Source: a bacterium (GTDB taxonomy: Bacteria; Patescibacteriota; Microgenomatia; CAZETR01; Amesbacteraceae). Taken from it: a stretch of 32,782 nt of DNA. Each line of letters begins with the position of its first letter. The stretch's first letter is position 1. The notes below the pieces were generated by a model. The model saw only the letters and a program-made list of their open reading frames with translations. It made no database searches and was not told the origin of the DNA. Of the stretch, positions 9,210-26,555 are shown piece by piece. The stretch lies in NCBI GenBank assembly GCA_030647735.1, contig JAUSIY010000012.1, positions 1-32,782 of the forward strand, given 5' to 3'. The position numbers and the translations under genes are program-made.

Positions 9210-12200
9210 ATGAGAAGACTGCTTACCCTACTATTTTTTCTGCTCCTGTTGTCTTTCGGACAGACCCCCAAAATCCGGGCAGCTGACAACATGTGCAATG
9301 TGGACCGGACTTGCACTACCTCCCAGGATTGGGAACGGGGTTGGGGGGACGCCAGACAATCAGAAAACATTGATAAGGCCCCGACCAGCACTGAAACTGA
9401 CACCAGCGGTAAAGAAATTCGCAAGGCCGGGGAAAGCAACAAGGTTAACCGCAGCCAAAAAGCTGCTGATGATGCTAAAGCTCGCGGGGGCGACCGGATT
9501 AACTCCAGCCAGGTGACAGAGGATGGCTCAGCGACCGGACCGGCAACGGCCCAGACCTCAAGCCAGGCAGCCGTGGCGGCTTCTTGTCCTACCAGTTTCT
9601 GTAATTACTGTGGAGGATTTTGTGCTAATTCTGGAGGGGGCGGCTGTCGGGAACAGGCTATTGGCAAATGTCCCGATGAAACAGGCACCAAGCCGGCCGT
9701 CATCGGTAACACCTGTATTACTGCTTCAGGCGATATATGTGGTATGGGTCTGGTCAACGGCCAACCTATGCAGTTGTATAACACCTGGGCAGTTAAAGAT
9801 GCTTCCGGGAAAATAACCAGCGTTAACTATTTAGTTAACCCTGAACAGGAGTTTCCCGGAGCTACCCTAAATTGCATCAAAAAAGTGGCTAACAAATGTT
9901 GGGTGAGTTTGGCTGACCCGGCTATCCAAAAAGTGGTCGGCCAGATTGTGGAAAATATCTCTCAAGGAACACCAGACAAAGCCAATCTGGCTATCAGTCA
10001 AAATTTACTGGATAACCTGGCGGCTACTCAGGTAATTAGCCAGGCTAAAATTAAAACGGCTGCCCAGCAAGCATATCTCGCAAATGTCAGCGTAGATTCT
10101 CTGGCCGCCAAATACAAACTTACTCCAGAGCAGGTTGACTCAGCTAAAAAGGAATTTGCCCGGCTGACCACAATTCAATCTGCCATCACTCGCCTGTCAC
10201 AAGCGGCTTCAAAAGACAGCGACGAATACCGCAGCGTTCTTCTATCTGTAACTAAAGACCTCTCCCCAACTGACGTCACTTTGGTTCTAAACAGCGTCGC
10301 AAATATTGTTGACCAACAAACCAGATTCACTCTGGCTCAATCCAACGATATCGGCAAAATTAAGTCTCTCTGTCACGAAAGAGAAGGTGGCAATCCTGAC
10401 TGTGACCGGGATGACTACGCCCGACTGGCAATAATTTCCGATCTGCCTGTAAATCAAGTCCAGGCAGTTAAAGATGAGGCGGACCGGCGGAAACAAATTG
10501 CTGACGCCGCTCAGCAAATTGTGGATATTAAAAGCACTGCCCAGGATCCGGTAGAGTTAACCACCCGCGAACAGACAGCCTTAAAAAACTTATCCTCAAC
10601 CGATCAGCAAATTGCCCGGGACCTAGCTTCTAATTCTATTCAGGAATACCGACAGTTGTACCAAAAATATGATCTGTACACTACCGGAGACAGCGTCAGA
10701 TTGGGATCAGACTGCCGGGCGAAATATCCGACCGGAAGTCTGCCCTCTGACCCTTGTGCAAACCTCAGTAACTACGCCCAACAATACCTGCTTCCTCAAT
10801 TACCTGCTCAATTGCAGCAGCAGGCGCAAAGTGATCGCTCAGCTATTCAGCAGCGTCTGGCTGAACTGAAACTGAGTCAACTGGCGGCCAATCAGGCTCT
10901 GATTGCAGATCAGGCTGCGGTAACTACTTTAACCGACGGCGGCCAGGTAATCTCTGTCTGTTCCGGAGACACTTTAACGACCACAGTTACCCAAACTATC
11001 ACCCGCGGTTCATCCCGGGGGGCCACGGGTACAGGAACCCGCAATTCCAACTGTAGTTTTGGCTGTTCCCGGGGAGCTTGTTCCACACCGGATAACGATT
11101 TTAACGGCAGCTTGGCTGACCGCAACCGGTATATCACCTCAGTCCAAACTGAGATGGCTGAAAAAAATATCGACCAGCAGCAGGCCCAGGCGCTGGTCGA
11201 AAGTGATTCCTACCTGCCCCGCATCAGCCCCGAACTATTGGCTATTATCCCGGGAACCAGCAGCCCGCTTAATCTCAGCCAGCCAGCTTCTACCACCGGC
11301 TTTGTCAGCCGTGGCCGACCTTCAATTGCCGCCATCGCCCAAGCTGCCCAAAATCAGATTAACGAGGTAGCGCAGTTTGCCACCAGCCGCTGCGGCGTGG
11401 CTCCTAATCAAAATGCCGCAAACTTGGACCAAAGCCGCAAAGACTGTTTGGGCCAATTTGACTACGACCAGTGGTCGGCATACCAGGATATTGTCGAGAC
11501 GGACCCCACTCTGAAGTTTTTGGGCCTGACTCCCCAATTGGAAACAGATATCTTGGCCGGGAAAGTTGATCCAGAAGTCCTCAGGGAACAACTGAGGAAA
11601 CAAAGTAATAGCTGGTCCTGGATTGGTCCCTTGCCCATTTACAACGGATCTCTGCTGGCCGCCAACAACTTCTTTCAAGGTACGACTTTCCGGGGCACCG
11701 CCTTACAAAAGGAAGCCTTAGAAACCGGGAATACCTGGGATTATGTGAGGGGAACATTCATAGCCGGTGCCCCACCGGCTGCTGCTGCTGTAGCCATTGC
11801 AGGTATAGCATTTCTGCCGGTATTTCCAGCCGCCACCGCCAGCTTAGGTACCTTCATGCAATTTGGCAGCCAGGCATTCAGCACCTACGCTACCACTCAA
11901 AGCCTGGCCAATACCGCCGAGGTCTGTTCTTTTGCCAATAACTGGACCACCGAGCAGAAGTATTCCTGCTCAATTGCAGCCGGAAATTCGGTGTATATGG
12001 CCACCAGCACGAGCTTGGGCATTTTATCTGCCTCTCTCAATGCCTCGCAAGTAGCTTTTCAAAGCGCTCTGCCCAAAATTGGGACGGCTGCCAACGCTGC
12101 CGGAGAGATTAATGTTATTAATGAAGCCCGTAACGCTGTGTCTTTGGGTACTAACGCCGCCCAGAGTGCCCGCGGAGCCCAGTTTATTAATTCTCTTTCA

Positions 12201-15200
12201 GCTGTGAATGCTGTCGCCGGAGCATATACCTTTGGCGGCCAGGCCATAACTTCATGCTTTGGAGCCAACGCCGACACTTTAAACTGTGCCACCAATGTAG
12301 GCATGGCCCTGGCTTCTTTAGGACGGATAACCGCCATCAGTTTAGCCCAACCGGTGTTTGCTCCTACTACCCAGACAGTTACTAAATTCACCTCCCAAGC
12401 CGGTGAAATTGCTGATTGGATTGATGGCATTAGTTCTTGTCGAAAAGGCAGTAATTTGGGCGAATGTGCTTCCGGAGTTATTGACGCAGTTTCCGGAGTT
12501 AATCTGGGCGGAGCCAGTCTGCAAACCACCAATGTAACCCAGAACTTGGACACAGCGGCTGCTGCTTTACAAAGTCTGCGTACTCCAACTGGCTTTAATG
12601 AGTCTGATCCGGCGGTTAAGCAAGCCCGGATAAACCTCAATTCGGCTATTATTGCCGCTGCCCGCCAAAACGCTCTGGTTCAGGCGGCTCTCAAGCAATC
12701 TGATCCCCTGCTTGCGGCTCCCCAAGCCGCATATCAGGCCAGTCCCAATGACACTACGGCTGGTCAGTTACTGCTGGACAAATACTGGCTCGATCAGCAC
12801 AACTATCTAACTACAATTAATCCTGTTTCCGGCTTAGACAGACTTCGCTTTTCCGGGCCAGAACTTACTAATTTGCGCATCAGTCAGGAAGAATTAAGAG
12901 CAGCTGCAGCGGCTGCTCAAAACTCCCCCGAAGGACTCAATTCACCCCAGTATCAGCAGGCTGCCTTAAAGACCGCTGTCGCTCTGGCCCAGGCTACGGT
13001 TGCTACCGGAGGGTCTCCTCAACTGGCTAACCAGATCATGCAGACTCTGTCTACCAAACTAAACCAGCAACAGCAACAGTTAGCCGCTTTGCAAACAGTC
13101 TCTCAAACCAACCCTGAATTTGCCGGATCAGCTACCGGCCAAATTAACCAGCTGGCTACTCAGGTCGCTTCCTTGCAACAAGGCCTGCTTGCTCTGGCCG
13201 GCCAAGCTGTAGGGGTCAGAGGTTTACCCATTGCCGCCAACCAATCAGTGAATCTCTCCAGCGGCGGTAGTTTTACCCCTAACGCTACTTCCCTGGCCCA
13301 AATACCTACCGGCACCACTACTACTGTCGGCAATCACACCTTTGTGTGGAACCGGGAGGCTAATATCTGGTATCTCAGGTCGGCCACCGACGCTGTCACC
13401 GATGACCCGACTGATCTCCCCCACGGTACGGTAGCGGAAGCCGGCAACCAGCTATATCTGCTGGATAAAAATGACCCTGATTTTGCCCAGTGGCGGCCAA
13501 TCGGAACAACTCCCCGCGTTACTGCAGCAGCCCCTACGGAAATCCGCAACTATCTCTCTTCTTTACCGGCCGGCAACGTTATCGTCCACAAATCTGACGG
13601 GGCTCTTATCGGTAACCCCGGTGGTTACTCGGCCAATGACTTAATTGAACTGCGGGATGCTTCCGGCCAGATCCAATGGTACAGACTCAACCCCGATTCA
13701 GGTTTTTATGCTGTGGAAAAACCGGCAGACATCCAACCGGTCCTTTCCCCGGTAACTCTGCCGGAACTGATTACCCAACCAGTGGGCATCAACGGTTTAC
13801 CCATTTCCGCTAACCAGTCCGTTCTTTTATCCAGCGGGGGGCAGTTTAATCCTCAAACATCTAATCTGGCTCTGCTGGCCACAGGAACCACGACTACTGT
13901 CGGCAATCACACATTTGTGTGGAACCGGGAAGCTAATATTTGGTACCTCCAAGCTACGACAAATGCTTTGCCCTCTGTTTCAGAATTGGCTGATCTACCC
14001 CGGGGAGTTCAAACCTTCGTGAATAATCAGGTTTACATCCTAAACCTGGACGCTTTGAACCAGCCAGTTTGGCAACAACTGACTACCACCTCAATTGCCG
14101 TTACCCAACCTCAGTCAGATGACACTCAACAACAAGTGCAATCGCTTTCTATTGGACAAAAGACTATTAATTGGGTAAGAAACTTGCCCAATTCCTGGAG
14201 AACCTCTGTCGCGGCTATTCCCCTCGCAGGCAATCAGCTTAGCCGTTTGGGTTTGCCTAACCGGCCCAATATTAATCAGGTAGTCTCTCAGGCCCAGCAG
14301 CAAGTTGCTTCAACCCAAACTGAATCTGGCAAGGCAACCCAAATCAAAGAAGCCGCTGAGCAGGCTTTAGTTGACCTCCAATCCCAAGCTCAAGTCCCTG
14401 TGACGGATGCTTCCCAAGCTAAACTTGCCTTAACTCAAGCCTATAACGCAGCCCAGGTAGCCTTAGCTGAAGCAGGCCAGATTCAGGATCGATTAAAACG
14501 GGTAGATGCTGACGTAGTTAACCTCATCAAACGCCAAATTGAGTTGGCCCAAACTCCAGTCCGCCCCCCTATTCCCGGATATACAGGGGCCACGGCTGAA
14601 AATGAAGGTACTAAATATAGTAAACGCCAAGAACCGATGGAAGACGCAGTGGGTATCAGCCAAAATCCTTCCCCAGTTCTCAAAAAAAGTTTAGGTGACG
14701 TCCTTCTGATTGAAGCCGATGGTATGGGTGCGATGGGACTAGTAAACAGCGGAGCCATTGCTGCCAGGATTATTCAGAGCCGAGCGGGGGAAATTTACTT
14801 CAATGAGCTGGCCTTTTCCTCAAACCAGACCGTTGACATCAACGACAGACTGCACCAAACCATGATTCAACTGAATGCTGAAATAGCCGCCCGGAACTTG
14901 AATGGCGGCGGAGCCACGGTTGAATTAGTGGTCATTGAAGAAAAGGGCGGTATTCAATTTGCCCACGTAGCCCATATCGGCGATTCTGCTACCTGGCTGG
15001 TCAGAAACGGAGTTGCTTATTCCATGACTAAAGATCAATCCTTTGTAGGAGCTCTCCTAGACGAAGGCCAAATTAGTGTTCAGGAAGCAGGTCAGCACCC
15101 ACAAAATAATGTGGTATTTGCTGCCTTGATGGGTAATCCAAGCGAAGACACCCCAGCCATTAAAGTGTCTACTTTCGAGGTGAAAGAAGGAGATGTGTTG

Positions 15201-17108
15201 ATTTCCATGAGTGACGGAGTGCTGGATCCCCTACGTTGGCACAACCGCATTTTTCATAACAAAGCCGAAGCTCTTACATCTGGAGGAGCTCAGTCTGGCG
15301 GTTTCTTTGTGGAAGCTGCCAAACAAAGCAATGCGCAGGCAGTCGCCAATTTTGTTGTTTCTAATGTCAGAAACCTGGCCAACCAGATTAGACCTGACAA
15401 GGTTGACAATATCACGGCCGGAGTTTTAGTTATCCAAAAACCGCAGCCTGCTGCAGGGGTTCCGGCCCAACAAACGGCCAGTTTGCAAAATGAACTGAAG
15501 GCAGCTCAAGCCCAACTGAATGAGTTAAATCTTCAGTACCGCCAGGCCCAGCAGACAGCCGATTTGGCCAGACAAAACTACCAAACTGCCAAACAAAATT
15601 ATGATAATTCGGTCTCTACAAACCAGAAACTGGCTCTGGCTGAAATTGCCCTGCGCCAAGCAGAAGAGGCAGAAAGAACTGCAGACCAGTTAGCTGCTGC
15701 TGCGGTTCTAAAAACCGGCGCGCTGAAAGAATGGAGCCAAAGTTGGAACAAATTGATTGCTCTCAATTCCAAGGCTACTACTGGTCTTAACTTACAAACC
15801 GCCAGCGAAGCGGATATCCGGATAGACAAACAATTATTAGACCAACAAATTGTTAATCTGGAATCTCCCTCATCACCCGAGCTTGAAGATCAGGGTATAG
15901 ACACGGAGTCTTCTACGTCTACTCCCCAATCGGCACTATCTAAAATCAGCCTGGTTTTAGGTAACTCGATTACCTCAACCCTGCCAATTGTTGGCAGTTC
16001 TCTAAGCAAAACCCGCTTTAAGGTTGGAGCGATAGTGGCGGATACTGTTATCACCTCCTTGGCCAAAACCTCGATCGAATGGGCTCTGACACAGCCTAAT
16101 GTTTCGGATGTAGTGAATATCGAAGAAGTTAATCTGACAGCAACTAATCCAGATTACAAACCCTACTTAGAGATCGTTAAATCTGGAGTCCAGCTATATC
16201 AACGAGGCCATCCCAATGCCTCAGTTACCTGGGCCAGAAAACCAGAGAGATATATGGTTTCAGATTTGGCCGAGGCCCTAACTAAAAAAATATCCCTGGA
16301 CGAGTCGGTCGTTATCTCGGAGAATTTACAGGGTAGGTATTTAGATAACCCAGATATTTTTTCAGGTAAGTCTGCCTTAACTGCCATCGGCATCATTTTT
16401 ATTAATAACGGGCTCAAAGTTAATAAATCTCTTATTGACTCCAAGGATGTTCTATTACACCGCCTGCCCCAAACAATATCTAAGGCTGCCCAAGCTGCCA
16501 GTAACGTCAATACTTTTCCCCGCGAAGCTCTTGGCAACTTCACTTACGGTGAGTTTGAAACCCTGCTCGACAAAACTGAAGTCTGGGTAAAACAGCAGGC
16601 AACAGTACAGAATGGGCCTATTGGTTCTGCTGAAATTTTGGCCCACCTGCTCAATGAAACCAACGGTGATTTAGAAAGATCGATGTATCTGCTAAGTGAA
16701 TTCTTCCGCTACGAATCCAGAACAGTTAATCGCCGGTTTGACCCTGAACGAGCCCTCTGGATGAAAGACCACATTCTCGACGAATATAGTTTGGTTTTGC
16801 CTTATAACTCCTTTGCAAGTCCTTCTGAAATTTCCTACTCCGGACCTTTTAAGCTTCCGTGGAACAACAGACCAACTTCAATTAACTATGATCTATCTCT
16901 TAAAAATAGGGTTGGCCTTCCCTATCACTCAGCTAATATCGTGGCTCTCTTAAATAGGTTCAGTCCTGAATTTATTACCTTAATGACAGCTGGAGAGTAC
17001 ATTACTTACGGAGACCAGCAAGGCTTTGTCAAAGCAGCTACTGACATCAAGGTTATTAGACAGTTAAAAGAAATTGAATCTTACCTCAGTTCATTCTCTT
17101 CACCATAG
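9210..17108 (+). CDS. Giant (2632 aa) secreted/membrane protein with embedded PP2C-like phosphatase domain
   Basis: Signal peptide MRRLLTLLFFLLLLSFGQ; Cys-rich N-terminus; Ala/Gln-rich helical regions; duplicated 62-aa module; PP2C motifs IEADGMGAMG, HIGDSATWLV, ISMSDGVLD, VDNITAGVLVI. Confidence 0.85.
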   Translation: MRRLLTLLFFLLLLSFGQTPKIRAADNMCNVDRTCTTSQDWERGWGDARQSENIDKAPTSTETDTSGKEIRKAGESNKVNRSQKAADDAKARGGDRINSSQVTEDGSATGPATAQTSSQAAVAASCPTSFCNYCGGFCANSGGGGCREQAIGKCPDETGTKPAVIGNTCITASGDICGMGLVNGQPMQLYNTWAVKDASGKITSVNYLVNPEQEFPGATLNCIKKVANKCWVSLADPAIQKVVGQIVENISQGTPDKANLAISQNLLDNLAATQVISQAKIKTAAQQAYLANVSVDSLAAKYKLTPEQVDSAKKEFARLTTIQSAITRLSQAASKDSDEYRSVLLSVTKDLSPTDVTLVLNSVANIVDQQTRFTLAQSNDIGKIKSLCHEREGGNPDCDRDDYARLAIISDLPVNQVQAVKDEADRRKQIADAAQQIVDIKSTAQDPVELTTREQTALKNLSSTDQQIARDLASNSIQEYRQLYQKYDLYTTGDSVRLGSDCRAKYPTGSLPSDPCANLSNYAQQYLLPQLPAQLQQQAQSDRSAIQQRLAELKLSQLAANQALIADQAAVTTLTDGGQVISVCSGDTLTTTVTQTITRGSSRGATGTGTRNSNCSFGCSRGACSTPDNDFNGSLADRNRYITSVQTEMAEKNIDQQQAQALVESDSYLPRISPELLAIIPGTSSPLNLSQPASTTGFVSRGRPSIAAIAQAAQNQINEVAQFATSRCGVAPNQNAANLDQSRKDCLGQFDYDQWSAYQDIVETDPTLKFLGLTPQLETDILAGKVDPEVLREQLRKQSNSWSWIGPLPIYNGSLLAANNFFQGTTFRGTALQKEALETGNTWDYVRGTFIAGAPPAAAAVAIAGIAFLPVFPAATASLGTFMQFGSQAFSTYATTQSLANTAEVCSFANNWTTEQKYSCSIAAGNSVYMATSTSLGILSASLNASQVAFQSALPKIGTAANAAGEINVINEARNAVSLGTNAAQSARGAQFINSLSAVNAVAGAYTFGGQAITSCFGANADTLNCATNVGMALASLGRITAISLAQPVFAPTTQTVTKFTSQAGEIADWIDGISSCRKGSNLGECASGVIDAVSGVNLGGASLQTTNVTQNLDTAAAALQSLRTPTGFNESDPAVKQARINLNSAIIAAARQNALVQAALKQSDPLLAAPQAAYQASPNDTTAGQLLLDKYWLDQHNYLTTINPVSGLDRLRFSGPELTNLRISQEELRAAAAAAQNSPEGLNSPQYQQAALKTAVALAQATVATGGSPQLANQIMQTLSTKLNQQQQQLAALQTVSQTNPEFAGSATGQINQLATQVASLQQGLLALAGQAVGVRGLPIAANQSVNLSSGGSFTPNATSLAQIPTGTTTTVGNHTFVWNREANIWYLRSATDAVTDDPTDLPHGTVAEAGNQLYLLDKNDPDFAQWRPIGTTPRVTAAAPTEIRNYLSSLPAGNVIVHKSDGALIGNPGGYSANDLIELRDASGQIQWYRLNPDSGFYAVEKPADIQPVLSPVTLPELITQPVGINGLPISANQSVLLSSGGQFNPQTSNLALLATGTTTTVGNHTFVWNREANIWYLQATTNALPSVSELADLPRGVQTFVNNQVYILNLDALNQPVWQQLTTTSIAVTQPQSDDTQQQVQSLSIGQKTINWVRNLPNSWRTSVAAIPLAGNQLSRLGLPNRPNINQVVSQAQQQVASTQTESGKATQIKEAAEQALVDLQSQAQVPVTDASQAKLALTQAYNAAQVALAEAGQIQDRLKRVDADVVNLIKRQIELAQTPVRPPIPGYTGATAENEGTKYSKRQEPMEDAVGISQNPSPVLKKSLGDVLLIEADGMGAMGLVNSGAIAARIIQSRAGEIYFNELAFSSNQTVDINDRLHQTMIQLNAEIAARNLNGGGATVELVVIEEKGGIQFAHVAHIGDSATWLVRNGVAYSMTKDQSFVGALLDEGQISVQEAGQHPQNNVVFAALMGNPSEDTPAIKVSTFEVKEGDVLISMSDGVLDPLRWHNRIFHNKAEALTSGGAQSGGFFVEAAKQSNAQAVANFVVSNVRNLANQIRPDKVDNITAGVLVIQKPQPAAGVPAQQTASLQNELKAAQAQLNELNLQYRQAQQTADLARQNYQTAKQNYDNSVSTNQKLALAEIALRQAEEAERTADQLAAAAVLKTGALKEWSQSWNKLIALNSKATTGLNLQTASEADIRIDKQLLDQQIVNLESPSSPELEDQGIDTESSTSTPQSALSKISLVLGNSITSTLPIVGSSLSKTRFKVGAIVADTVITSLAKTSIEWALTQPNVSDVVNIEEVNLTATNPDYKPYLEIVKSGVQLYQRGHPNASVTWARKPERYMVSDLAEALTKKISLDESVVISENLQGRYLDNPDIFSGKSALTAIGIIFINNGLKVNKSLIDSKDVLLHRLPQTISKAAQAASNVNTFPREALGNFTYGEFETLLDKTEVWVKQQATVQNGPIGSAEILAHLLNETNGDLERSMYLLSEFFRYESRTVNRRFDPERALWMKDHILDEYSLVLPYNSFASPSEISYSGPFKLPWNNRPTSINYDLSLKNRVGLPYHSANIVALLNRFSPEFITLMTAGEYITYGDQQGFVKAATDIKVIRQLKEIESYLSSFSSP
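13209..13394 (+). repeat. 62-aa module, copy 1, inside the giant protein
   Basis: VGVRGLPIAANQSVNLSSGG...GTTTTVGNHTFVWNREANIWYL; near-identical DNA to copy 2. Confidence 0.9.
13782..13967 (+). repeat. 62-aa module, copy 2, inside the giant protein
   Basis: VGINGLPISANQSVLLSSGG...GTTTTVGNHTFVWNREANIWYL. Confidence 0.9.
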
Positions 17109-20897: not shown

Positions 20898-21149
20898 ATG
20901 AACACTCAAACCATCTTTCAGGCCGGCAACAGCCGTGTGGTATCTATTCCCAAGTCCTTATTGGAGGAACTTAACTTTAAACTTGGGCAAAAAGTCAACG
21001 TCACAAAGCTGGACGATGAATCTATTGTTATCAAAAAAGTCAAGACTACCCCACTCTCTTCCGCTAAAACTACGTCCGAGTTTAAAAAGTGGCTCAGCGA
21101 TGTATTAGAAGAAGACGCTGAAGTACTCGATGAGCTGGCAGTACGTTGA
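20898..21149 (+). CDS. AbrB/MazE-like antitoxin
   Basis: IFQAGNSRVVSIPKSLLEELNFKLGQKVNVTKLDDESIVIKK swapped-hairpin AbrB fold; overlaps the Doc ORF. Confidence 0.88.
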   Translation: MNTQTIFQAGNSRVVSIPKSLLEELNFKLGQKVNVTKLDDESIVIKKVKTTPLSSAKTTSEFKKWLSDVLEEDAEVLDELAVR

Positions 21150-21522
21150 TATCACCGAAGTGTACGAAATTCACGCAGCCGTGGTTAAACGTGCCGGAAC
21201 TAAAGCTTCCGTCCGAGATTTCGGTTTACTCCACTCCGCCGTCGAGAGACCAAAAGCCACCTATTCTGGTCAAGACTTGTATCCCAATACATTTCTAAAG
21301 GCCGCCGCCCTCATGCAGTCTTTATGCCTGAACCACCCTTTTACAGATGCCAACAAAAGGACGGCATGGTTATCAACTAAACGATTTCTGAAAATCAACG
21401 GTTATCACCTCAAACCCCAGAAATTAGATGCGGCCGATTTTATGGTCTATGTCGATAACTCCCAGCCAGATATTAAAGAGATTGCTAAATGGTTGAAAGA
21501 GCACTCACAACTTCTGGCCTAG
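21130..21522 (+). CDS. doc: Doc-family (Fic fold) toxin
   Basis: HPFTDANKRTAWLSTKRFL matches the Doc motif HxFx(D/N)ANKR. Confidence 0.9.
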   Translation: MSWQYVDITEVYEIHAAVVKRAGTKASVRDFGLLHSAVERPKATYSGQDLYPNTFLKAAALMQSLCLNHPFTDANKRTAWLSTKRFLKINGYHLKPQKLDAADFMVYVDNSQPDIKEIAKWLKEHSQLLA

Positions 21523-23820: not shown

Positions 23821-23849
23821 TTGCTCAAATTGACACAGGGGTATATAAT
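23821..23849 (+). promoter_or_regulatory. Promoter for the T-box operon
   Basis: TATAAT at 23844-23849, weak -35 TTGCTC 17 nt upstream. Confidence 0.45.
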
Positions 23850-23867
23850 GTGTTTAACAATTTATAA

Positions 23868-24186
23868 CGCAATGAAGCAGTGAAGTAGGAATCAGACAGA
23901 GACAGCAGAGATCTCGCGGTTGCTGAAAGCGAGACGATTATCTGAAACCGAATTACCCTGGCAAAAGCGGCTCTGACAAAATCAGAGACGGGATCAGCCC
24001 GACAAAGCTGAAAGGATGTGTCGGAAACGGAGCATTCGATGAGGCCAAAGCCAAAATTGAATCCCCTTCTGGGGATTTTTTAGTGGGTTTGGTAAAACAA
24101 GGTGGTACCGCGAGAAGCCTCGCCCTTGTCAATCAGATTTTCTTTCCAAAGGAAATGTTATCTGGCTGATGGGAGCGAGGTTTTTT
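23868..24186 (+). promoter_or_regulatory. T-box riboswitch leader, tyrosine-type, with antiterminator and terminator
   Basis: T-box AAGGTGGTACCGCG at 24099-24112; antiterminator CAAGG(24098-24102)/CCTTG(24124-24128) and GCGAG(24110-24114)/CTCGC(24119-24123) around the 7-nt bulge TGGTACC; terminator CCTCGCCC/GGGAGCGAGG + TTTTTT; candidate specifier TAC at 23954-23956. Confidence 0.93.
24118..24186 (+). terminator. Regulated T-box terminator
   Basis: CCTCGCCC (24118-24125) pairs with GGG(A)GCGAGG (24171-24180), followed by six T. Confidence 0.85.
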
Positions 24187-24738
24187 ATGTCCAACATAGA
24201 CAAAAAAATAGTTATTCTGACCGGTCCTCCGGCAAATGGAAAATCGACTATTGGCGGGTTACTTTCTGAGGCCGGTTTTTGCCATATCGAAGCAGATAAC
24301 TTTATCTCGTCCCTTGGCAGGCAAAGACTTAATGACGGTACCTGGTCAGACATAGACCGTGAAGAATACATGACTGGGGCAGCTCAAGCCGCCCTTGAAG
24401 CTTCCCAGACAGGCCAGCCAGTGGTGATTTCGGATACCCTAACCCTGCCCTGGATGAGAGAATTCATGACATCTCAGCTGGCTCAACCCGGTATCACCGT
24501 TGGGTTAGTGTTTGTGAACCGGATATTAGACGAAAAACAGATAGCTCAAATAGCCCTTAAAAGAGCTTCGGAAGGACATGCTCTTGATCCTGATGCTTTA
24601 GTTAAGTTCAGGAAATTGTTTGTCCCGCTGGATGCAATTACTGAACCTCACGTAACTTTAGAGAATCCAGGCGATGTAGATTTGAACAAGCTGTTAGTCA
24701 CCGCTCTTGCGACTATTGAAAAATTATGGAACAACTAA
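24187..24738 (+). CDS. P-loop kinase/NTPase (small-molecule kinase or zeta-toxin-like)
   Basis: KKIVILTGPPANGKSTIGGLLSEAGFCHIEADNF Walker A; ATG at 24187 preferred because ATG 24169 lies in the T-box terminator stem. Confidence 0.85.
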   Translation: MSNIDKKIVILTGPPANGKSTIGGLLSEAGFCHIEADNFISSLGRQRLNDGTWSDIDREEYMTGAAQAALEASQTGQPVVISDTLTLPWMREFMTSQLAQPGITVGLVFVNRILDEKQIAQIALKRASEGHALDPDALVKFRKLFVPLDAITEPHVTLENPGDVDLNKLLVTALATIEKLWNN

Positions 24739-25400
24739 TCACTTCACCCTCTGCCCAACTAACAATTGGAACTAGTCAAGGTCTCGTAAAGACTGTTAAT
24801 GAGGACTGCATTGAATTCAGACTGGATGGAAACCAAACCGTTGTTTGCCTCTGCGATGGTCATTGGGGTGATACTGCTGCAAAGCTTGTCTGCCGGACAA
24901 TTGCAAATAACTTCCCATCCAGCCGCAGAAAGGCCCTCCATCTGCTAAATCACATTGAACTCCAACTATTGGGAGAATTTGGCAAAGAACCACCTAACCC
25001 TGAGATAGATCAACCTCCGGAAACCAGCCTAGTAGCAGTCAGGTTTGATTCTTCCTCTCGTAAATTAACGGTCATTTGCTATGGAGACTGCCGAATCCTC
25101 ATATCCAATCATGGCCAAATTAGATTCCATACGCTTCCCCAAGCTACCTGGCTTGGAGTGTTTTCGCGTCTGGGACTTCGTGGAAGAATTCCTGTCAAAA
25201 GGGGGCTGACTTTCAATACTTTGGCTCTTCAATCTAATGATTCTGTTTGGATGTTTACTGATGGTGTAGATGAATGTATTTACGAAAAACCAACTCTTTC
25301 TCATGGTTGGGTTGTAAAGCACAATATCTCGGAAATCTTTGCTCAGATTGAAAAACAGGGTGCCCAAGATAATGCCAGTTTAGTTATTTTGAAATGCTAG
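24726..25400 (+). CDS. PP2C-family Ser/Thr phosphatase-like protein
   Basis: VVCLCDGHWGDTAAK, VICYGDCRILI, SVWMFTDGVDE, QDNASLVIL motifs. Confidence 0.85.
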   Translation: MEQLITSPSAQLTIGTSQGLVKTVNEDCIEFRLDGNQTVVCLCDGHWGDTAAKLVCRTIANNFPSSRRKALHLLNHIELQLLGEFGKEPPNPEIDQPPETSLVAVRFDSSSRKLTVICYGDCRILISNHGQIRFHTLPQATWLGVFSRLGLRGRIPVKRGLTFNTLALQSNDSVWMFTDGVDECIYEKPTLSHGWVVKHNISEIFAQIEKQGAQDNASLVILKC

Positions 25401-25409
25401 AATAACCAT

Positions 25410-26555
25410 ATGGATAAGATTGATGAATTGTTAACCCGGGGAATAGCCAATATTATTCCCTCTAAACAAGCATTGGAAAAAAGGTTGCGTTCTGACCAAA
25501 AAGTAAATGCATATCTTGGCATTGATACTACCGCCCCCCATGTTCACTTAGGTAACGCCTTTGGACTGCGCAAACTGCAACAGTTAGTAGATATGGGTCA
25601 CCATGTGACCTTCTTAATTGGAGATTTCACAACTAAGATTGGAGATTCTTCGGACAAAGAATCTGAACGGCCAATTCTGACAGATACTGAAATCGAGACC
25701 AATTTTCAAACCTACAAACAACAAGTCAGCAAAATCTTGGACTTTTCCCGAGTGGAATTACATCACAATAGCGAATGGCTGTCTAAGTTAACTTTTGCGG
25801 ATGTTATAAAATTGAGTCAACAATTTACCCTAAATGATTATATCAGTCGGGAGATAATGAAAAAGAAGCTAGAGAATGGGGTTTCAATTCGCTTAGACGA
25901 AGTCCTCTACCCCCTGATGCAGGGATATGACAGCTACTTTATGGATACTGATATTCAAGTCGGAGGAGCTGACCAAACTTTTAATATGCAGGCTGGCCGA
26001 AACTTGCAAAAGAAATTAAGAAGTAAGGATTCGTTTGTATTAGTCGGCCAATATTTAACTGGCACTGATGGTCGGAAAATGAGCAAGAGCTGGGGCAATG
26101 CTATTTGGCTGGATGACACTCCCAACGATATTTTCGGTAAGGTGATGTCAACCAAAGATGAATTAATTGACGAATACTTCACCCTAGGAACTAATTTGCC
26201 TTTGAAAGACATACCCAAAGGAAAATCTATGGACAGAAAGAAAAAACTGGCCTGGCAAATCGTGTCTGAGCTACATTCCCCGACGATAGCTGATATGGCT
26301 CAGGCTTATTTTGAATCAACTTTTCAGCAAAAACAAACTCCGGCAGATATTCCCCAATACCACCTCGAGAAGAATCGGTCGATTTTAGAAGTTCTGGTTG
26401 GAAGTGGCCTGGTTAAATCCAAGTCAGAAGCCCGTCGTGTGATTGAACAGGGCGGGGTAAAACTAAACCAGTCCCCTGTAACAGATTTTGCAACTGAAGC
26501 CGGTCCAGGAGACCTCGTCCAAGTGGGTACCCGGAAATTCGTCAAACTGACTTAA
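25410..26555 (+). CDS. tyrS: Tyrosyl-tRNA synthetase
   Basis: PHVHLGNAFGLRKLQQLVDMGH, GGADQTFNMQAGR, GRKMSKSWGNAI (KMSKS), C-terminal S4 domain. Confidence 0.96.
   Translation: MDKIDELLTRGIANIIPSKQALEKRLRSDQKVNAYLGIDTTAPHVHLGNAFGLRKLQQLVDMGHHVTFLIGDFTTKIGDSSDKESERPILTDTEIETNFQTYKQQVSKILDFSRVELHHNSEWLSKLTFADVIKLSQQFTLNDYISREIMKKKLENGVSIRLDEVLYPLMQGYDSYFMDTDIQVGGADQTFNMQAGRNLQKKLRSKDSFVLVGQYLTGTDGRKMSKSWGNAIWLDDTPNDIFGKVMSTKDELIDEYFTLGTNLPLKDIPKGKSMDRKKKLAWQIVSELHSPTIADMAQAYFESTFQQKQTPADIPQYHLEKNRSILEVLVGSGLVKSKSEARRVIEQGGVKLNQSPVTDFATEAGPGDLVQVGTRKFVKLT

Follow-up and report, generated by a model that had tools for sequence, protein, structure and literature searches.

A tyrosine-specific T-box operon with unusual gene content and a conserved extra hairpin in a Patescibacterial genome

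A tyrosine-specific T-box riboswitch heads a three-gene operon encoding a P-loop kinase, a PP2C-type phosphatase and tyrosyl-tRNA synthetase in the genome of an ultrasmall, uncultured CPR bacterium of the Amesbacteraceae (Patescibacteria). The operon lies in a window of 32,782 nucleotides, corresponding to contig C48 in a 0.69 Mb genome with 93% completeness, and all its leader elements and genes are on the forward strand. Our analysis confirmed that this is a real Tyr T-box operon, that its gene content is unusual and that its leader carries a conserved extra hairpin. We hold with considerable confidence the overall reading that the T-box drives all three genes, that the kinase and the PP2C protein are accessory products encoded in a variable slot rather than a signalling pair, and that the extra hairpin probably acts as a pause site or leaky terminator.

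The leader matches the full Rfam covariance model of the T-box (RF00230, model positions 1–219) at 23863-24130, with a score of 79.2 bits in Infernal (E = 1.3e-17; per genome E = 4.5e-18), and a genome-wide search with this model detected it as the sole T-box of the host. The score falls below the Rfam gathering score of 93, which is a reporting cut-off and not a structural feature, and for this reason a default Rfam scan of the window reported no T-box. The first-pass annotation had named a covariance score below threshold as grounds for discarding its T-box; formally the score does fall short (79.2 versus 93), but this is overridden by the other evidence. T-box matches were recovered in five of 14 control genomes, every one from groups known for T-boxes, and in the same search two of these five pass the score of 93 and three fall under it, so that the weak score of the leader is no argument against a T-box. 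Nearly all T-boxes of the phylum, bar a few, also score below 93. The T-box is thus real, with a full-length model match, a specifier, the bulge and both alternative helices intact.

The Rfam alignment places the specifier codon UAC (Tyr) at 23954-23956, where it aligns with the UUC of the model consensus GAAa-UUC-aCC, as the TAC singled out in the first pass would require. It agrees with the downstream tyrS gene and with the genomic tRNA-Tyr(GUA), which has an A discriminator and is encoded on another contig. The T-box sequence AAGGTGGTACCGCG is found at 24099-24112, and the antiterminator, delineated from the Rfam alignment and the sequence, spans 24099-24127; it comprises intact A1 (AAGG/CCTT) and A2 (GCGAG/CTCGC) helices and the expected 7-nucleotide TGGTACC bulge (24103-24109), of which the UGGU is complementary to the A73-CCA end of the tRNA. 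In an alignment with the leaders of two other genera of the same family (G006 and G013), mean column identity is 83%, and all three leaders share CGAATTACCCTG unchanged. The whole leader folds with a z-score of -3.74 relative to shuffled sequences, with 0 of 100 shuffles being as stable. A -10 promoter element, TATAAT, can be read from the sequence at 23844-23849, 14 bases 5' of the T-box; the candidate -35 element (TTGCTC, 23821-23826) is poor, and a promoter consensus scan did not list the TATAAT. Similar -10-like boxes also occur 5' of the T-boxes in G006 (TATAAT) and G013 (TTAAAAT).

A competing terminator with T6, likewise proposed in the first pass, was found at 24117-24186 (henceforth T2; -29.9 kcal/mol). 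Its arms, CCTCGC (24118-24123) and GCGAGG (24175-24180), are followed by the T6 tract at 24181-24186, and in the fold the segment 24118-24127 is used by both the antiterminator and T2, which makes the two helices mutually exclusive. As the listed start of the kinase reading frame (24169) falls inside T2, we moved the start to the ATG at 24187, which is best placed, with a GAGG 6 bases upstream. This Shine-Dalgarno-like GAGG is contained in the 3' arm of T2, suggesting that T2 formation would also mask the ribosome-binding site of the kinase, so that leaders folded into T2 that escape termination may be poorly translated. A simple terminator scan reported neither T2 nor the extra hairpin (T1, see below), because the T2 loop is long and branched and the T1 stem runs into its U-tract.

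While this anatomy is observed, the response to tRNA is taken from the established T-box mechanism. We read the leader as a class I transcriptional T-box, specific for Tyr, over kinase-PP2C-tyrS. Uncharged tRNA-Tyr would pair through its GUA anticodon with UAC and through its ACCA end with UGGU, thereby stabilising the antiterminator, blocking T2 and allowing RNA polymerase to read the kinase, PP2C and tyrS genes; with charged tRNA, T2 would be free to form. The tyrS T-boxes of Firmicutes (RF00230) have the same stem I with a UAC specifier, stem III, UGGN-bulge antiterminator, U-rich terminator and tyrS target, whereas the present switch differs in its Patescibacterial host, the kinase and PP2C genes before tyrS, a U6 hairpin in stem III and a sub-cut-off Rfam score.

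This U6 hairpin, T1, was absent from the first-pass annotation. It consists of AATCCCC-UUCU-GGGGAUU with a U6 tract at 24076-24081 (24060-24081; -12.1 kcal/mol) and sits upstream of the antiterminator, enclosed within stem III (24044-24093; -26.3 kcal/mol), which is formed by GCCAAA (24044-24049) and UUUGGU (24088-24093). Among the 103 T-boxes of the class that we screened, a hairpin of this kind within the 120 bases preceding the core was detected in 11 of 16 motif-called Tyr leaders and in 10 of the remaining 87 (Fisher p = 4.5e-6), the shuffle expectations being 0.07 and 0.16, respectively. Three of the Tyr calls proved false and were dropped (L116, L159 and L135; in the first two the motif falls in the antiterminator), L102 was added, and L106, with its hairpin 141 bases before the core, was counted. 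After this curation, 12 of the 14 related Tyr T-boxes carry T1 at the corresponding position. Both sides of the helix change together at pairs 3 (T-A/C-G), 5 (C-G/G-C), 6 (C-G/A-T/G-C) and 7 (C-G/G-C), and all pairs except the two outermost are maintained across the relatives. By this comparative evidence T1 is a conserved element, and, nested in stem III, it most likely represents a hairpin pause or a leaky first terminator, which would allow the tRNA to dock before synthesis of the discriminator.

It might instead serve simply to cap stem III stably and aid folding of the discriminator, with no terminating or pausing role, an explanation to which we give a substantial but minority chance. 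A review describes stem III as a sequence-variable part of the discriminator (PMC7583486), and in two of the 14 Tyr T-boxes it lacks a U-tract. However, the hairpin and a U5-U7 tract co-occur in the other 12, and the U-tracts of T1 and T2 often precede identical bases ((A/G)TG or ATT); since a U-tract would be superfluous for a plain cap, this recurrence counts against it. No outgroup T-boxes adjoining tyrS were found in Omnitrophota, Chloroflexi or Coriobacteriia, and viral contigs with a T-box core, considered for the same purpose, were rejected as their matches are not T-boxes.

The three genes are as tightly packed as first described: the kinase (183 aa, 24187-24738; AAA_33, E = 4e-7) overlaps the start of the PP2C gene (224 aa, 24726-25400; SpoIIE, E = 9e-6; Stp1-type PP2C model, E = 2e-7) by 13 bases (24726-24738), and tyrS (381 aa, 25410-26555; TIGR00234, 328 bits versus a cut-off of 113.8) starts 9 bases past the PP2C stop. 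The synthetase is closest to those of Candidatus Amesbacteria MAGs (60-62% identity), which places the host among the Microgenomatia; at the tyrS loci of close Amesbacteria, however, both the T-box and the kinase are absent. The kinase was found in three of 233 genomes of the class, and in three of the 14 sampled from the family; in all three it immediately follows a Tyr T-box and precedes tyrS. Its synteny, which the first-pass annotation had offered as a check, holds in full in G006, with the order T-box-kinase-PP2C-tyrS and an identical 13-base overlap, but only as T-box, kinase and tyrS in G013, where a 343-aa protein lacking any Pfam match and an M20 peptidase take the place of PP2C. PP2C was found in G000, G006 and G027, and its relative in the last of these (L097, 6875-7618) belongs to the str operon, where it is flanked by rpsG and fusA and not accompanied by the kinase. 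More generally, different lineages carry different genes in the slot that separates the T-box from tyrS, including those for methyltransferases, a metallo-β-lactamase-fold protein, GNAT-like and M20 proteins, and tRNA-Tyr.

AAA_33 is the only Pfam match of the kinase above cut-off, and both sequence and structure comparisons relate it to gluconokinase, shikimate kinase and adenylate kinase. The top structural matches of its AlphaFold model (pLDDT 87) are gluconokinases (TM 0.68-0.71), followed by adenylate kinases and the archaeal O-phosphoseryl-tRNA kinase (PSTK). With GntK/IdnK (TIGR01313; PDB 1knq, 3t61) it shares the P-loop, a D-rich substrate region, the R..GH lid motif and the fold (TM ~0.7), but it is only 15-19% identical to them and stands here only in T-box-tyrS operons. 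The window kinase itself gave no match to TIGR01313 at E 0.001, and its relatives reach E ~1e-8 with 34-35 bits (35 for the best), far under the cut-off of 113.75 for assignment as gluconokinase. A profile comparison with an E. coli gluconokinase sequence also agreed, serving as a lead only. Across the three genera the kinase retains 33-46% identity and conserved P-loop motifs. Taken together, sequence and modelled structure indicate that it is a divergent gluconokinase-type P-loop enzyme and not a protein kinase. Phylum-wide matches to the kinase profile were rejected as weak P-loop similarity, the best of them (G399) being an ordinary gluconokinase.

The model of the PP2C protein (pLDDT 81) finds its best structural matches in RsbX, PppA and MsPP, and the PPM fold together with invariant metal-binding Asp motifs identifies it as a predicted PP2C/PPM phosphatase. 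It shares this fold and the NED, DG, TDG and DN metal motifs with bacterial representatives such as Stp1/PrpC, RsbX and PppA, but differs from them in its small size, in scoring far under the Stp1 cut-off and in that no partner Hanks kinase was found in the genome. DGHWG replaces the usual DGMGG, and a Lys stands where most PP2C proteins have the phosphate-binding Arg. PADLOC gave a marginal match for the PP2C protein and none for the kinase. A second PP2C domain (PF13672 above cut-off, 14607-15245) is encoded elsewhere in the window, within a 2632-aa protein (9210-17108).

The first-pass annotation had interpreted the operon as a starvation-linked phosphosignalling module induced by uncharged tRNA-Tyr; of this, the Tyr T-box over kinase-PP2C-tyrS and its recurrent synteny stand, but the signalling module is not supported. 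Its appeal lies in the position of both genes under the T-box, the 13-base overlap conserved in two genera, and a phosphatase whose fold resembles those of RsbX, PppA and bacterial Ser/Thr phosphatases and whose metal-binding Asp motifs are invariant. We nevertheless regard it as quite improbable. The kinase groups with small-molecule kinases, and the Hanks-type Pkinase domain (PF00069) has no match in it or in the rest of the genome, making a protein-phosphorylation pair unlikely; moreover, the two proteins are separable, with the kinase occurring without PP2C in G013 and PP2C without the kinase in G027. Action of the kinase, and perhaps of PP2C, on RNA or tRNA in the manner of polynucleotide kinase or O-phosphoseryl-tRNA kinase, with the T-box inducing TyrRS and, alongside it, the repair or modification of tRNA, also appears unlikely. 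A search of phage proteins with the kinase yielded only weak polynucleotide kinase matches (phrog_505, E = 6e-5; 27.5% identity, E = 9e-3), which together with the archaeal PSTK among the structural matches and the PP2C relative between rpsG and fusA would favour such a role; but gluconokinases score higher in both sequence and structure, much of the similarity is common to P-loop kinases in general, and no PP2C is known to act on RNA ends.

The lineage-specific filling of the slot raises the further prospect that kinase and PP2C are passengers in a fast-changing insertion site, with selection acting only on the control of tyrS. We consider this doubtful, though deserving some weight: the kinase has been retained in three genera and was found nowhere else in the 233 genomes of the class, and the P-loop and PP2C motifs are conserved. 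The preferred reading remains that of accessory genes in a variable slot, whose products would most likely serve tyrosine or translation economy.

T-boxes are not confined to this family. Matches at E ≤ 0.001 were recovered in 48 of 95 relatives and in 95 of 287 sampled Patescibacteria, or about one third. In 2008 a survey found T-boxes limited to a few phyla (PMC2494555), and our literature search, which had subscription papers outside its scope, returned no paper on T-boxes in CPR bacteria or before tRNA genes. At least seven relatives have a tRNA-Tyr gene 3' of the Tyr T-box, mostly 3-35 bases past the terminator; the leaders concerned (L098, L099, L105, L114, L124, L139, L148 and L111) show the order T-box, cognate tRNA gene, accessory ORFs and synthetase. 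Similarly, in G026 a Phe T-box (L123) precedes tRNA-Phe and pheST. A pattern search detected no tRNA-Tyr other than the T-box-linked gene in G055 and G026; in G066, G074 and G075 the linked gene is a second copy. The corresponding tRNA of G093 carries a GTT anticodon, and that of G020 looks degenerate. We tentatively propose that Patescibacterial Tyr T-boxes might be two-gate riboswitches, with a terminator or pause in stem III followed by the canonical terminator, and that many may gate their own ligand tRNA-Tyr and TyrRS, with lineage-specific enzymes added.

Several other genes in these neighborhoods deserve mention. A family of ~280-aa proteins with an invariant YxxxE is encoded between tRNA-Tyr and tyrS in L098, L111, L139 and L148; it shows only a marginal match to class Ic synthetases (PF00579, E = 0.033) and none in the PDB, and is possibly a synthetase-like or tRNA-dependent enzyme. 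In L124 (G062) a single operon combines a Tyr T-box, an atypical tRNA-Tyr, an M20 peptidase and an apparently archaeal-type TyrRS. Such peptidases are a repeated feature of T-box operons specific for various amino acids (L093, L103, L124, L145 and L172), some beside a GNAT-like protein, and possibly serve amino-acid salvage. In the window itself, a small AbrB-like gene and the Doc/Fic-like gene after it (HPFTDANKRTA), at 20898-21522, probably constitute a toxin-antitoxin pair.

CPR bacteria are believed to rely on other organisms for their amino acids, and how they sense starvation is little understood. Patescibacterial T-boxes widen the range of this regulator relative to the 2008 survey (PMC2494555), and the conserved extra hairpin and unusual target genes distinguish their Tyr switch. 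If the two-gate proposal is true, the gating of tRNA-Tyr and TyrRS would constitute a self-referential loop, extended by enzymes such as the kinase and PP2C. The presence of a tRNA-sensing switch in about a third of the sampled Patescibacteria would make regulation directly testable in cell-free assays for organisms that seldom grow in culture.
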